Source of the DNA: a virus
Strand: one strand, 5' to 3'
Length of the DNA stretch: 20,369 nt
IMG/VR virus record: IMGVR_UViG_3300007344_000346
Location: 1 to 20,369 of that record
The notes under the pieces are model-generated. The model made no database searches, was not told the origin of the DNA, and was given only the letters and a program-made list of their open reading frames with translations. The position numbers and the translations under genes are program-made. Shown here piece by piece: positions 4,614-15,622 of the stretch (position 1 is its first letter; each line of letters begins with the position of its first letter).

Positions 4614-7600
4614 GCGCTAAGCCCTCGATATCTTTGCAACTCTTCGCTGACTTTTCTGGCGTTTAGATAGACCGTTGGGTCTTTTTGGTCTCGTAGCTGC
4701 TCAAGGATCAATGACAATAGCTCGATTGTTCTTGCTGTGTCGTAGCTCGGAGCCTCGGAAATTGGAGCACCGTATTTACTGCTTGCTCCTGTGCTGCTTA
4801 AGTAGCTACGTACCGCCGGAGCGTCATCTTGTCTAATAACCATCTCGCCCCTGTGCAGCATTGCAGGCTGTACGGTTCCGTTGATGTTCCATGCTCCTTT
4901 TGCGAATGGTTTAGTAGATAAATCAATTGATTGAAGTTGCCCAGATACGTAATAGTCATATCTAGAAAAACCAATATCCTGTGAGGATTTATACGATTTA
5001 CCTCCTAATGTATCGCTACCAGATTCGACTGCGCCACTAGGTGTTATTACTTTCTGCCCTATGGTTGCGCCAAACTCATTGTAATATAATCGCCTTTTAT
5101 AACCTTTCTTTTCTATATACGCTCTTTGACCGTCTGCGCTAATCTTAGCTACTTGTTGGGCTCCTATGGCGTAATCGCTAAGTGATGAGCCAGTACCTGC
5201 CAATGCTCTTAATTGACCACTAGCAATAACAAATTGACTAAATGCGTTTACGTCACCTATTGCCGGCTGCTCTGTAGTTAATTGAGTTTCCTGCTCGATT
5301 GCTGTTTTTAGTTTTAGTGCATTATCTGCTATTGTCTCAAATACGTTTGCAGTATTTTGCGCAATCGTCTGAAGGTTTACACTCGTAGATTGTAGTGGTG
5401 TAGATGTAGATACTAAAGTATTCGATAAATCTGTTGTTTCTTGTCTCGTTGTTTTTGTTGCGCTAGAACTGTCATCAAGCTGAGTCTCTAAACTTGCTAG
5501 AGTCTCCGCAAAGCTTCCGGTTTTTGTTTTTGTTGTTGTGCTTGCTGTGCCTAATCCGTCGATTGAACTGTTGAGCTTTCCATCGCCAGAAAGTGCACTT
5601 GTTGCATTGTCGCTGTTTGTTTTGAGTCCTGCTAGGGAACTGTTAAGGTTTCCGTCTCCAGAAATTGAATCCTTAGCTCCTTCGCTGCTTGTTGTTAAAT
5701 TCTTCGTAGCTTCGTCAAGAAATGCAAAGCTTGTTTTCAGTAAATCTAGATTATCCTTAAAAGTCGTCGGGTCTGCTTCAGATGTTGCAGTGACTAAATT
5801 CGCTGCAAGACTATCGAAAGCACTTTTTACATTTTCTTTTATTTTGCTGTAATTCGCATCAGTTCCGAAAACTGTTTGGGCTTGATCTAGAAAAGTCTTA
5901 CTGACATTCTGAAATTGTGCGATTAATTGTTCATCTGCTGAGGTAAGCTCAGAAAAATCTATTTTATCAATTGCTTCGCTAGTCGCCACAAACTTCTGTT
6001 TGAGTAGCTCAAATTTATCAACTGGTATCGCTGATGATATATCACCGGCTGTCAATGAATCTAAATCTTGCAATACTGAAAAAAGTATTCCATTTATTCC
6101 TTCTGCGCTGCTTTTTTGTTGGTTCAATGCTGATTGCTGCTGCGCTGCTATTTGTGTCTGTAATCGGTCAACCGCTTGCACTTGGGCAAAATACTGTTCT
6201 GATAACTTGATGCGCTCCTCAAGCTGTCCCTCGTTGAGGCTTGCAAGCTCTACTGATAAATTCCGTAACTCTTGTTGAGCATCTGCAAGCTTGATATCAA
6301 GTGAAACATCTTTAGTTATAAAATCAGTGATCTGCTCAGAAAGTCGCTCATACCTTGTTAACAAATTGCTCAAGTTCGAACTAGATTGAGTTGTCTGCTG
6401 AACACCTCCACCAAAACCGCCAAAGCTCATAGGATGCGCTGTTTGTGTGGCTCTTGGTCTTGCTGCTTGCGTGACAATTGAAAAGCCTTGGCTCTTTACG
6501 TAATCTGACCAGTCGCTCCCGAAGCTTGAACCGGCAGGAAACCGGCTTGCTCTTTCTGCTGCTTGTGCTGCTTCTGCTTGTACTTGAATTGCTTGTACTT
6601 GTGTTTTTGCTTGTCGCTCAATCGCTTGAGTTGTTCGGCCTGTTGCAATCTCTTGCTGCTGTTGCGCTTGCGTTACTTTCTTAATTGCTTCTGTTGCTTT
6701 GTCGTTCTCTGTATTCAGATCTTTTGTTTTGTCTGTCAGATCTTTTGTTTTCTTTGTTTGATCGCCTATTGCTTTAGTTTGATCGTCTACAACGTCTCTG
6801 TTGTGATCTATTGCTTTAGTTTGATCTTCTGTTGTTTTCTTTTGAAGTCTTGCTGCTTTGTTTAGATCTACGAATTTATTTTTTAAGTATTCAACTCTGT
6901 CCGCTTGTTTTTCTATAAATTCTGTGCGTGTATCTAATAACTCTCTTACACTTTCCGCTGCCCTCTGTGTAGCGTCAGATAAGCCACCGACTAAAGCATC
7001 CCTCCAAGATTTAGCACTATCAAAATCAAGTGTTAAAGCACTGCCTACCATTTTTGCAAAATCTAAAGCACTTGACGCAGCATCGCCCAAAGCACGTCCG
7101 AACAAGGTAGCAAAGCTTTGAATTGCCTTGATATTCAACTGAATACTATCGACTACATAGCCGAAACCCTGACCGAGAGTAAGCATAACCTTGCCGGCAA
7201 ATGAGAAAGCTTCCGTTAATCCGGTAGTTTTACCGGTTAAGTCTTTAACTTTTCCGGAAGCATCAGAAGTTTTACCGCCGATATTTGTAAACTGCTCGAC
7301 TATTATTTTACCGACTTCTACAACGGCTCTAAAACTCTGCTCATTAGCTTGGATGCTTTCGGTTAATCCGTCGATGAATATTTTTAGATCATCTCTGATT
7401 AGATCCTCAAAAATACTAATCCGAATACCTTCAACCGCTGAGCTTAATTTGGTAAAAGATCCCTGCAAGGTATCCATCTGCTTTTTGGCTATCTCGTCAG
7501 CAACGTCACCCACGTTTTTCAATTGGTGCGCCATCTCTTCGACTGCTGCGATTCCTCCGCTTTGCTGCAAAGTCAATAATGCGCCTCCGGCCTCAGTGCC

Positions 7601-12586: not shown

Positions 12587-13546
12587 TTACACTGATAAGT
12601 TATGAAGTGCTCCGTGCTTGCTTTCGTGACCGAAATCTATACCGATCTTAGCGAAAACCTCACCAATTTCACCTTGACCTACGTTTGCAGTAGATCGGAA
12701 TGAAATTTGTGGTAACCCTGGAGTTGTGTTAGAAACACCTTCACAATGTCCCATATCCACAGCTAACAAAACGCCGGAGGGTACAAGGTCGTTGTATACT
12801 AACTTGACTGGTGGCATACCTGGAATAACTAGCTCTAGCAAGTTGATACCTCCACGACTTTCGGATCTTGGCTGAACTCCGTAAAGTGTATTTATGTCCA
12901 TTAAAAGATTAGATCTACACATGAAGTACATATCTTCCATATCTGCGCCGTTATCAAGCATAGACTCGGCTAGGCTTTCGATTAAAGGCTTAGAGATTGC
13001 AACCGCTGAAGCGTCGATCTTGTTAGTACTCAAAGCTGTATAAAGCCCGTTGACTTGGAAAGCTGTAGCAGGATCTGACGAACCATCAGCACCCACGCCG
13101 TTAATAATTGAAAATTCGAAATCTCTTTTCATTTGCTCAAGATGAATCATAATTTGCTTTTGAAACTCTTGCATTGCGAAGATATCACCATCAATCGCAT
13201 TTCCGCTGATTGATCTATCAGACAATTTAAGATCTGAGAATTTAACGCCTTCTCGCATTACTTGACAGTAATTTGTATTTTGTGTGGTTTGGTACACTGT
13301 ACTAGTAGCACTATTAAAAGTCGAATTCTCACTATGCGAAGGTTGTGAGGCCGAATCGAGCGAATACGACTGGCTCATATTGAAGTGCATTGCTCCGACT
13401 TCTCTAAATGGTGACTCTTCACCTCGTTCTAGTGCTCCCATTCCCAAAAGACTTGAGAAAGGATATTTTCTTTGACCGATTCCGATCCACTCACCTTGGT
13501 AGTTGGCTAGGTTGGTGATTAACCCACTTGCTGTAGTAGATGCCAT
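12587..13546 (-). CDS. Major capsid protein (SU10/DUF5309-like)
   Basis: A 319-aa protein directly after the scaffold. It has an excellent ribosome site, AGGAG seven bases before the ATG, expected for the most abundant virion protein. The N-terminal arm (residues 1-60) includes SSLLGMGALERGEESPF. A long spine-like helix lies at 126-150 (EFQKQIMIHLEQMKRDFEF). An axial-type domain follows, with KPLIESLAESMLDNGADMEDMYFMC (187-211) and PPVKLVYNDLVPSGVLLAVDM (244-264). This layout and length match the HK97-fold capsid family known as SU10 major capsid/DUF5309. No N-terminal protease-type propeptide is visible, in line with a separate scaffold. Confidence 0.88.
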   Translation of the reverse strand: MASTTASGLITNLANYQGEWIGIGQRKYPFSSLLGMGALERGEESPFREVGAMHFNMSQSYSLDSASQPSHSENSTFNSATSTVYQTTQNTNYCQVMREGVKFSDLKLSDRSISGNAIDGDIFAMQEFQKQIMIHLEQMKRDFEFSIINGVGADGSSDPATAFQVNGLYTALSTNKIDASAVAISKPLIESLAESMLDNGADMEDMYFMCRSNLLMDINTLYGVQPRSESRGGINLLELVIPGMPPVKLVYNDLVPSGVLLAVDMGHCEGVSNTTPGLPQISFRSTANVGQGEIGEVFAKIGIDFGHESKHGALHNLSV

Positions 13547-13559
13547 TTTTTTACTCCTT

Positions 13560-14294
13560 TTATAAGTTTATTCCGGCGTTAATCGCCTTTAACCTAAATT
13601 TTTGTATTGCGTTTTTATTTCCGCTGAGTACAGCCTCTTGATACCCTTTGCGAATTTCTCGCTCTTGGGTTTTAGAGGTTTGCACTTTGTTGATTTGTCC
13701 TCGAATCCCAGAACCCTCGAAGCTTGCGCCAGAACTTGCATCTTTACTTGCCCATGAATTACTTTTTAAGTAATCCTTGAAATAATCTTCGATGCTGATT
13801 CTGTCGCCCGTCATAGGGTCAATTTTTGGAGTTCCGTCCACGTCCAGAACAAATGCACCTCTGTCATCAGAGGCTATCTGCCCGTCGAAGAGTTTAACGC
13901 ATTCTGAGCGCATTCCAACTGCTTCCGCTGCTCTTGCTGTTTGTTGCTGCATTTTCAGCTTTGCGTTTTGTTGTCTCTCAAAGCTCATTTGATCCTGCAT
14001 TGCTTTTAATGCTTTTTGCATCTCTAAAAGCTGCGCTGAATCTTGTGGTTCTTCTTTCTTCTCTTCTTGCTTTACCGCTTTGCTGTTTTCAGATTTTAAT
14101 ATCTCGATTTGCGCTTTGATTCGCTCCGCTTCCGCTTTTGCTTCTCTTTCCGCTTTTCTTTGATTCTCTAAAGTTCTTAAGAGTGGGCTCGGGTCATAGA
14201 ACACTTTCCCGTCTTCCTCAATCAAAAACTTCTTATCATCTTCGTTTAGTTCGTTAAAATCTTCAACGCTGTAAGCTGTTAAAACTTTAGACAT
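13560..14294 (-). CDS. Capsid scaffolding protein
   Basis: A 244-aa protein immediately before the capsid gene. Residues 38-117 form a long, highly charged Glu/Lys/Gln coiled coil, typical of internal scaffolds, followed by a conserved-looking DDRGAFVLDVDGTPKIDP segment and a C-terminal helix-turn-helix-like basic tail (about 195-244) that may bind the capsid shell. The ATG at 14294 is chosen because AGGAG lies eight bases before it. The in-frame GTG at 14303 falls inside that ribosome site and is rejected. No Ser/His protease motif was seen, so a separate or host-independent maturation route is implied but not shown. Confidence 0.82.
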   Translation of the reverse strand: MSKVLTAYSVEDFNELNEDDKKFLIEEDGKVFYDPSPLLRTLENQRKAEREAKAEAERIKAQIEILKSENSKAVKQEEKKEEPQDSAQLLEMQKALKAMQDQMSFERQQNAKLKMQQQTARAAEAVGMRSECVKLFDGQIASDDRGAFVLDVDGTPKIDPMTGDRISIEDYFKDYLKSNSWASKDASSGASFEGSGIRGQINKVQTSKTQEREIRKGYQEAVLSGNKNAIQKFRLKAINAGINL

Positions 14295-14302
14295 AGTTGT
14301 CA

Positions 14303-14307
14303 CTCCT
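14303..14307 (-). promoter_or_regulatory. Ribosome binding site fixing the scaffold start
   Basis: AGGAG, eight bases before the ATG at 14294 and immediately after the third hairpin of the leader (only one base, A, lies between). Its closeness to the hairpin means that folding or protein binding there could affect initiation. Confidence 0.7.
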
Positions 14308-14308
14308 T

Positions 14309-14374
14309 GGCATCTCGCCTAGTTTGGGATTTTTGAGCGTCTCGCTCGGTTTGGTTTTTTAGCATCTCGCTAAA
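14309..14374 (-). repeat. Three tandem hairpins with a conserved GAGAT/GAGAC loop
   Basis: Read on the minus strand, TTTAGC-GAGAT-GCTAAA (14374-14358), GAGCG-AGA-CGCTC (14347-14335, core AGC-GAGAC-GCT) and GGC-GAGAT-GCC (14319-14309) follow each other with centres 25 and 27 bases apart. The linkers are also alike, AAAAACCAAACC and AAAAATCCCAAAC. The loop stays GAGAY while stem bases change in pairs (A-T to G-C in the third unit). They lie just downstream of, and overlapping, the expected start point of the promoter at 14378-14407. They are either RNA leader hairpins or operator dyads for a phage regulator. Confidence 0.6.
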
Positions 14375-14377
14375 TGT

Positions 14378-14407
14378 ATTATAACGCATTTATTTACTTT
14401 CGTTCAA
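14378..14407 (-). promoter_or_regulatory. Predicted sigma-70-type promoter for scaffold and capsid genes
   Basis: A perfect TATAAT lies at 14383-14378 on the minus strand and TTGAAC (4 of 6 consensus) at 14407-14402, with an 18-base spacer. The -35 falls within the last codons of the head morphogenesis gene, and the -10 is in the only sizeable gap of the head module (14295-14389). The expected start is near 14371, at the base of the first hairpin. An internal promoter here would raise scaffold and capsid expression above the packaging genes. Confidence 0.6.
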
Positions 14408-15622
14408 TTTTCGGCGTTTTCTTTGTATGCTTGCTGCTCTTGTACTAATTTGTGGCTTTTTCGCTTTAATTTGCTTGTCACGCCTCCGTATCTCCTGCAA
14501 TGCTTCGCTTTTTATGCCGATCAGGTTCGCTAGCTCTTCAACTGTGCGAATTCGGCCTTGTCCGTCAAGTAGTTGCTTCATGCCTAATTTGCCACTCTGG
14601 TACATTTTATATCGCTGTGGGCCGAGCCAGTTTATTTGATCTTGCTTGCTCATCTGTTTGAAAAATACGTCGAAGCTTGTAAATTTGCTTGATTGTTTTG
14701 GTACTTGTATATCCATCACCTTATCAGTCTTTAACTTAAACTGACTTTTGATCTCGCCTCTTTCTGTTGCAACAATTTTCTGTTGCCAAGTTCTAGCTCT
14801 TTGGCTCATCGTCTTCGGATCGTCAAATTCACCGAAAGGCACAATCTGAGATCTACAATTTATATGCGCCGGTGGTCTGATTGGAAAGTCTTCGAGCTTC
14901 TTTTTAATTTGTCCTGCTTTGCTCGCACAGATCTTTGATGTGCGGTTGTCTAGTGTCGTCACCCATTGATAACCATCTATTATGTCGGAAAAATTTTGCT
15001 CGTTGGTGTATTCTTTTGTGCGCTGCATCGCTTCCGCTATTGTTGTTCGTGTTAATGCGTTTACTTGATGAGTTTTGAGATTGTCTGTATCTTCTGTCAG
15101 TTCTCTAAATAGTTTAACAGTATCGTCGATGCCTAAACCTTCCGCAATAGAAAGCCTCAAAGCTTTTTTGTACTCTTTGCTGTGCTGCCTCATTAGCTTG
15201 TCGATTTCCTTACTCGGCTTGAATTGTCTATCTGTCTGCTCGTAGCCCTCAAGCGTGATATTGTCCGTTATACTTATCAGCATCTTAAGAGCATCAAAAG
15301 GGATTGCGTCGAATGTCTGTTTGATTTCAACGCCGGCATTCTCGAAAGCTTTGTTAGTTATTTCGTAACTGAATTGAGAAGCGATTCGATTATCAGATTC
15401 TAGATCTGTCTTAAGTCTTGCGTAAAGCGGTCTAAGCTCTTCATCGACTTGTGCGATTAGATTCCGGTATCTTGTTTGACTCTGAATCGTGTCCGATGCT
15501 GCAAGACTAGATTCTAAATAGTCCCGAATCTCTTCGAGCTGATTTGTGTAATTCTCAGCACTGGCAAAGTCAAACCGTTGTAGAAATGCTTGATCTCTTA
15601 TGTACGTATCGAAAAAGCTCAT
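14390..15622 (-). CDS. Head morphogenesis protein (Mu gpF / SPP1 gp7-like)
   Basis: A 410-aa minor head protein, overlapping the portal stop as ATGA. Residues 187-263 contain the family signature: TRTTIAEAMQRTKEY, then YQWVTTLDNRTSKICASKAG, and PPAHINCRSQIVPF with the paired Cys and His residues of this domain. Relatives are carried inside the procapsid with the portal and influence DNA injection or early head assembly. The N-terminal ~180 residues are helical and charged. The C-terminal ~150 residues are basic and end in a Lys/Arg-rich tail (KAKKPQ, RKRRK), suited to DNA contact. Confidence 0.9.
   Translation of the reverse strand: MSFFDTYIRDQAFLQRFDFASAENYTNQLEEIRDYLESSLAASDTIQSQTRYRNLIAQVDEELRPLYARLKTDLESDNRIASQFSYEITNKAFENAGVEIKQTFDAIPFDALKMLISITDNITLEGYEQTDRQFKPSKEIDKLMRQHSKEYKKALRLSIAEGLGIDDTVKLFRELTEDTDNLKTHQVNALTRTTIAEAMQRTKEYTNEQNFSDIIDGYQWVTTLDNRTSKICASKAGQIKKKLEDFPIRPPAHINCRSQIVPFGEFDDPKTMSQRARTWQQKIVATERGEIKSQFKLKTDKVMDIQVPKQSSKFTSFDVFFKQMSKQDQINWLGPQRYKMYQSGKLGMKQLLDGQGRIRTVEELANLIGIKSEALQEIRRRDKQIKAKKPQISTRAASIQRKRRKLNESK

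Follow-up and report, generated by a model that had tools for sequence, protein, structure and literature searches.

The locus studied here raises the question of what three short hairpins, placed between two head genes of a virus, contribute to the expression of the gene that follows them. The window, i.e., the whole stretch of DNA analysed, is a 20,369-base IMG/VR virus record whose minus strand carries a block of head and tail genes, which comprises both terminase subunits (small and large), the portal, a MuF-type head protein, the scaffold, the major capsid protein, and tail genes including the tape measure; all genes around the hairpins are read from this strand. The hairpins, with the loops GAGAU, GAGAC, and GAGAU, are located on the minus strand between the MuF-type head morphogenesis gene (14390-15622, minus strand), which is the upstream neighbour of the scaffold gene, and the scaffold ribosome site. 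Hairpin 1 (14358-14374, minus strand; TTTAGC-GAGAT-GCTAAA, 6 bp), hairpin 2 (14335-14347, minus strand; GAGC-GAGAC-GCTC, 4 bp), and hairpin 3 (14309-14319, minus strand; GGC-GAGAT-GCC, 3 bp) have loops starting at -74, -49, and -22 from the ATG, respectively, and a single A separates hairpin 3 from the Shine-Dalgarno sequence AGGAG (14303-14307, minus strand). The probable target is the scaffold gene (13560-14294, minus strand; ATG at 14294), and the major capsid gene (12587-13546, minus strand) is situated downstream in the same operon, with no GNGAY hairpin in its own leader. The window scaffold protein itself matches no PHROG or Pfam family, and the putative scaffold gene is named by its place between the MuF-type and capsid genes, by its relatives, and by the hairpins.

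The sequence-only reading had described a TATAAT with an 18-base spacer to TTGAAC, followed by three GAGAY hairpins with repeated linkers, the last hairpin being one base from AGGAG, and had proposed either an RNA-binding site for a regulator or an operator set. On re-reading of the minus strand, all of these features are present as described: the -35-like TTGAAC (14402-14407, minus strand) lies within the 3′ end of the MuF-type gene, the -10-like TATAAT (14378-14383, minus strand) follows at the given spacing, and the linkers AAAAACCAAACC and AAAAATCCCAAACTA are similar to each other. The RNA folds into the hairpins as first described (z = -2.3). GCGAGAYGC occurs three times in the 20,369 bases, in each case in this leader and on the same strand, and the suggested search of the remaining genome for such dyads yielded no further copies; GNGAY hairpins of at least 4 bp on the entire coding strand of the window are limited to hairpins 1 and 2. 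Nevertheless, the triple in the window alone is suggestive and not decisive, because 19 of 60 dinucleotide-shuffled versions of the window contain weak same-loop hairpin triples of some sort and because the promoter-like site, matching the consensus at 10 of 12 positions, is one of 33 such matches vs. 20 expected (a mild enrichment in the stretch). The decision is made by comparative evidence.

Thirteen relatives were found via a capsid protein search. All three hairpins are retained in the close relatives (89-100% identity) that reach the region; stem 1 is changed from AGC/GCU to GGC/GCC, stem 2 from A-U to G-U, and stem 3 is extended by a pair in some of them. A distant relative, L013, which was found by capsid homology alone and shares 42% capsid identity and 66% terminase identity with the window, contains the hairpins AUAAAUCUU-GAGAC-AAGAUUUAU, UUCC-GAGAC-GGAA, and UUGC-GAGAU-GCAA, with loops starting at -73, -50, and -20 from the AUG. 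The loop class, the number of hairpins, and their spacing are kept between L013 and the window, whereas the stem sequences share little or nothing, and the conserved feature is therefore the RNA structure rather than the DNA sequence. The earlier expectation that stems change together around a maintained loop is thus borne out in relatives by compensated changes. Both TATAAT and TTGAAC are unchanged in those close relatives that cover them, which are little diverged, and a putative sigma-70 promoter upstream of the hairpins is plausible; its use is uncertain because the equivalent TATAAA of L013 overlaps hairpin 1. Directly upstream of the GAGAY hairpins, L013 additionally carries three copies of a CTACAAT-AAAAG/TTAAG-TTGTA(G) dyad (L013:3143-3205), which may represent an operator or a second hairpin set. 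A blastn search of the region against phages gave no matches, and searches of genome contigs with the MuF and terminase proteins found no prophage relatives.

Beyond these relatives, tandem GAGAY hairpins with differing self-complementary stems are present in many unrelated phages of IMG/VR. This database was scanned for three CGAGAYG loops (including the C-G closing pair) 12-30 nt apart, selected on the loops only, and at least 118 distinct triples were obtained among the matches listed. All three stems have at least 3 bp in 9 of the 118 listed loci vs. 0.59 expected on shuffling of the 3′ arms (maximum of 5 in 2000 permutations), and pairing of the arms in these nine listed loci is achieved with many different sequences. 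Each of the nine is situated at the start of a scaffold gene, the AUG often lying within a hairpin; the scaffold assignments are based on PHROG or Pfam matches, some of them weak, and on close kinship to the window in the case of L152. L085 is a tenth listed locus if closure of one stem by U-A is accepted, and its protein shares 40% identity with the L141 protein. Two further scans, requiring two different stems, gave 27 and 12 loci; 27 of these 39 lie at scaffold starts, and a further 4 are found in major capsid gene leaders. Many of the 39 are near-copies, and judged by eye the independent groups number approximately 11 for scaffold, 2 for capsid, and 7 for other places. The non-head matches (L188, L193/L209, L194, L204, L226, L228, and L235) look like coding repeats or chance matches.

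The position of the hairpins relative to the start codon differs among these loci. The start codon is included in a hairpin (GAGAUG at -3) in L088, L094, L117, L141, L181, L190, L196, L197, L202, L212, and L231, and lies within the third hairpin in L150. In L117, L141, and L212, one hairpin precedes the ribosome site, one covers the AUG, and one or more are located in the first codons. Hairpins continue well past the start codon, to approximately +90, in L094, L155, L157 (+33 to +90), and L181, and the only two hairpins of the L189/L192 group are at +51 and +81. Both the scaffold (PHROG 206) and the capsid (PHROG 212) genes of L233 carry the element. The capsid leader of this locus (L233:6879-7060, minus strand) contains a hairpin resembling a terminator, with a run of T, and an extended -10-like site, TTGGCATACT; since they divide the scaffold from the capsid gene, the two may be transcribed separately, each with its own GAGAY hairpins. 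Matches to the int-alpA RNA (RF02996) on the contigs of two loci with the scaffold element (L181:8425-8486 and L197:4063-4127, minus strands) suggest that these contigs are prophages.

A covariation test, as had been proposed, was applied to 27 distinct hairpins. Paired combinations occupy 95.4% of the cells, double changes are found at all four pairs, and the third pair is GC in 14, CG in 9, UA in 3, and AU in 1 hairpin. The covariation score is 0.90 vs. 0.22 (sd 0.04) in shuffles, none of 500 of which reached it, and at most 0.18 in slid versions; most loci had been chosen for having stems, which makes the number partly circular, whereas L013 and the cultured phages had not been so chosen. 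Two alternatives concern the nature of the repeats. One holds that the repeats are DNA operators bound by a transcription regulator beside a sigma-70 promoter, for which the dyad form of the repeats and the TTGAAC-18-TATAAT directly upstream would speak. Conserved half-sites would be expected of such an operator set, yet the arms differ widely among copies and co-vary freely (GGC/GCC, GCC/GGC, GTC/GAC, TTCC/GGAA), abolishing any DNA half-site; moreover, the asymmetric loop is carried by the coding strand, and copies are found inside coding regions and across start codons. The DNA operator is hence very improbable, and an RNA site is the supported reading, as the sequences of the stems vary freely while pairing and loop stay, with the hairpins shifting between the 5′ UTR and the coding region across phages. 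The other alternative, equally improbable, regards the repeats as an N-terminal peptide motif of the scaffold protein (GETP, AETA) with pairing as a by-product. In the coding-region copies, GAG ACG is indeed in frame and encodes Glu-Thr, but the neighbouring residues (G..P, A..A, V..T, P..G) vary as the pairing requires, the same hairpins are found in untranslated leaders (the window, L013, L085, L198, L200, and the cultured phages), and untranslated and coding copies coexist within one gene in L117, L141, and L212.

No cultured relatives were found by tblastn with three scaffold proteins. Cultured phages were picked by their scaffold protein, using tblastn with the L198 scaffold, to avoid selection on the motif. 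The phages picked, i.e., Elanor, PaMx28, Ab18, Bordetella CN1, Donnerlittchen, RcRudolph, and Sonora, span Pseudomonas, Bordetella, Xanthomonas, Janthinobacterium, Stenotrophomonas, and Rhodobacter, and all of them have hairpins right before the scaffold ribosome site, with GAGAU, GUGAY, or GCGAY loops. Hairpins are also present before the major capsid gene in the five examined (Ab18, CN1, RcRudolph, PaMx28, and Sonora). The positions in cultured phages are regular, at approximately -45 and -24 for scaffold and -82 and -52 for capsid. Pentaloop hairpins of at least 4 bp were counted in four cultured genomes, over the first 50 kb per genome, with eight 150-nt scaffold and capsid leaders; GNGAY accounts for 10 of the 37 in the eight leaders vs. 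46 of 4344 elsewhere (hypergeometric P = 1.3e-11), and the runner-up among 128 loop patterns of equal form occurs twice in the eight leaders. The GAGAY loop with compensated stems of the sequence-only reading is accordingly correct for the window but too narrow in general, the consensus across many phage lineages being G-N-G-A-Y on a short free helix. Under this rule, L155 gains two more hairpins, one of which, GGUC-GUGAU-GACC, has the AUG inside (GUGAUG). Members of the family have several hairpins with stems of about 3-9 bp, separated by roughly 20-35 nt and with greatly varying linker lengths; in scaffold genes, the sites are beside or over the Shine-Dalgarno sequence and AUG, and in capsid genes they precede the AUG by 45-100 nt. 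The structure, the covariation, the loop rule, the position, and the association with scaffold and capsid genes are established by these comparisons.

The element is not found universally. The tandem element was not found in the leaders of P22, Sf6, Sf101, ZP9, PfAn1, VSN-002, and T7, nor was the element found in PaMx25, MMDA13, S72, and Silvergun, and none was detected at gene starts of Microcystis phage Mae-JY09, DSL-LC06, and HTVC112P. Some of these (P22, Sf6, PfAn1, VSN-002, PaMx25, and MMDA13) are scaffold-related phages, and no protein was identified whose occurrence is confined to phages with the element; both points count against the reading favoured below. The scaffold and capsid leaders of PaMx25 (L250:6400-6460, 7300-7421) share the hairpins GCCAC-AUGA-GUGGC and UGUGGC-AUGA-GCCAUA, which perhaps represent a different loop code for the same job, although two copies could arise by chance. 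In relatives of P22, i.e., Shewanella phage ZP9 (L221:1720-1776) and Enterobacteria phage Sf101 (L224:1700-1764), a sequence similar to TCCGATGGG(A/C)T(A/G)AACATCGAGTAAA just upstream of the scaffold Shine-Dalgarno sequence constitutes a conserved hairpin unlike GNGAY.

The reading that we favour, with a probability of about 0.72, is that the hairpins form a cis-acting element of the scaffold mRNA, belonging to a widespread family of RNA operators, through which a phage protein, most likely the free scaffold protein, sets the translation of scaffold and capsid. The element would act in or across the translation start region of the scaffold gene and, depending on the lineage, also of the major capsid gene. 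Its loop would adopt either a GNGA turn followed by Y or a triloop, NGA, with a closing G-Y pair; the loop G and Y are able to pair in the 27 distinct hairpins (G-C in 14 and G-U in 13). A phage protein would recognise the GNGAY loop on a helix of any sequence, engage several hairpins at once, and thereby cover or expose the ribosome site, such that scaffold synthesis would follow need, and that of capsid as well, via the operon or its own copies. With free, unassembled scaffold protein as the most likely binder, a negative feedback would result. A partner is implied because single hairpins are weak (-2.5 to -8.4 kcal/mol) and would not be expected to block ribosomes alone and because the loop is invariant; we infer that protein binding, repression as the direction of control, and scaffold as the binder are most likely.

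Regarding the source of the partner, a host factor or the ribosome might read the hairpins for stability, processing, or translation enhancement without a phage regulator, and the same loop in phages of several proteobacterial host genera with a wide GC range would be compatible with this idea. It is nevertheless unlikely, for the element is limited to scaffold and capsid genes, unlike most host mRNA features, and a phage-encoded partner is favoured because the distribution is patchy within phages of a single host species, P. aeruginosa, PaMx28 and Ab18 having the element and PaMx25 being without it. Among phage proteins, the major capsid protein or a separate small RNA-binding protein is a genuine, though less probable, alternative to scaffold as the binder, and the element would then couple scaffold and capsid output to it. 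The divergence of the scaffold families is very high, and both the scaffold and capsid leaders carry GNGAY hairpins in Ab18, CN1, PaMx28, RcRudolph, and L233, as expected of one shared factor; however, no shared extra gene was identified. The scaffold protein is the best candidate because scaffold is the most constant target and because autogenous control of the P22 scaffold at the post-transcriptional level has been known classically, for decades, which also weighs against a capsid or small-protein binder. The hairpins located solely downstream of the start, in L189/L192 and L157, misfit simple blocking of initiation and might reflect tethering or multi-site spreading. Tethering of scaffold or capsid subunits to their own polysome, so that hairpins would nucleate or localise assembly and heads would start near the mRNA, would account for the hairpins up to about +90 in L094, L155, L157, and L181, where blocking of initiation is unexpected. 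This explanation is quite improbable, as hairpins are mostly clustered around the ribosome site and the start codon, and we know of no precedent in dsDNA phages for hairpins that tether assembly to mRNA.

Head assembly requires a set ratio of scaffold to capsid, and the RNA site described here is compact and predictable and occurs in many phages, including several cultured ones, so that the question of control becomes testable by a plasmid reporter. Should the scaffold protein prove to be the binder, it would define a novel class of proteins that bind RNA, and the hairpin could then serve to locate scaffold and capsid genes missed by sequence searches, as in the case of the window scaffold. 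We would further suggest, with limited confidence, that one protein-RNA code of GNGAY loop and free stem is common to numerous dsDNA tailed phage lineages whose scaffold and capsid families differ, and that it serves as a general assembly sensor tuning the translation of both head genes, other lineages using other loops at this place (e.g., AUGA in PaMx25).

With Rfam covariance models at the gathering score, the element was not matched in the window, L013, or 14 other loci, and no published description was found in the openly accessible literature, although older work in subscription journals could exist. The loops GAGAY, GUGAY, and GCGAY lack the GGA of CsrA/RsmA sites. Lambda-type boxB sites of N antitermination likewise have a purine-rich, GNRA-like pentaloop hairpin in phage mRNA; however, the boxB loop is GNRNA, whereas the fifth loop base is C or U here in 27 of 27 hairpins (Y being preset in the search), and when all loops in the cultured-phage leaders are counted, GNGAY occurs 10 times and any other pattern of that form at most twice. 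Furthermore, several copies surround the ribosome site, mainly of scaffold and capsid genes, in contrast to one boxB per nut site. The autoregulation of the P22 scaffolding protein (gene 8) concerns the same kind of gene and has the same presumed purpose, i.e., that scaffold is made only when free scaffold is low; to our knowledge, no RNA site has been defined for it, and P22 gene 8 has no GNGAY hairpins, so that P22 cannot use this element. In phage T4, RegA and gp43 also act through autogenous translational operators. Those of gp32 share with the present element the trait of repressor sites in gene leaders of a dsDNA phage, according to two reports (PMC3014915, PMC535899). The T4 operators of gp32, RegA, and gp43 differ in genes, RNA shapes, and sequences. 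A further close class is that of the RNA-phage coat operators (MS2, Qbeta, and PP7), in which a short hairpin with a fixed loop and a largely free stem is placed at a phage start codon, and the MS2 coat-operator hairpin mediates translational repression by a virion protein. A fixed loop, a free stem, and a position at the ribosome site or start codon are likewise found here, whereas the ANYA tetraloop and the bulged A of the MS2 operator are replaced by GAGAY/GNGAY loops on stems with no conserved bulge, and the element occurs in several tandem copies in dsDNA tailed phages with scaffold and capsid genes as probable targets. The element is classed as a putative type of translational operator, apparently undescribed so far, with an unusually wide and gene-specific distribution.
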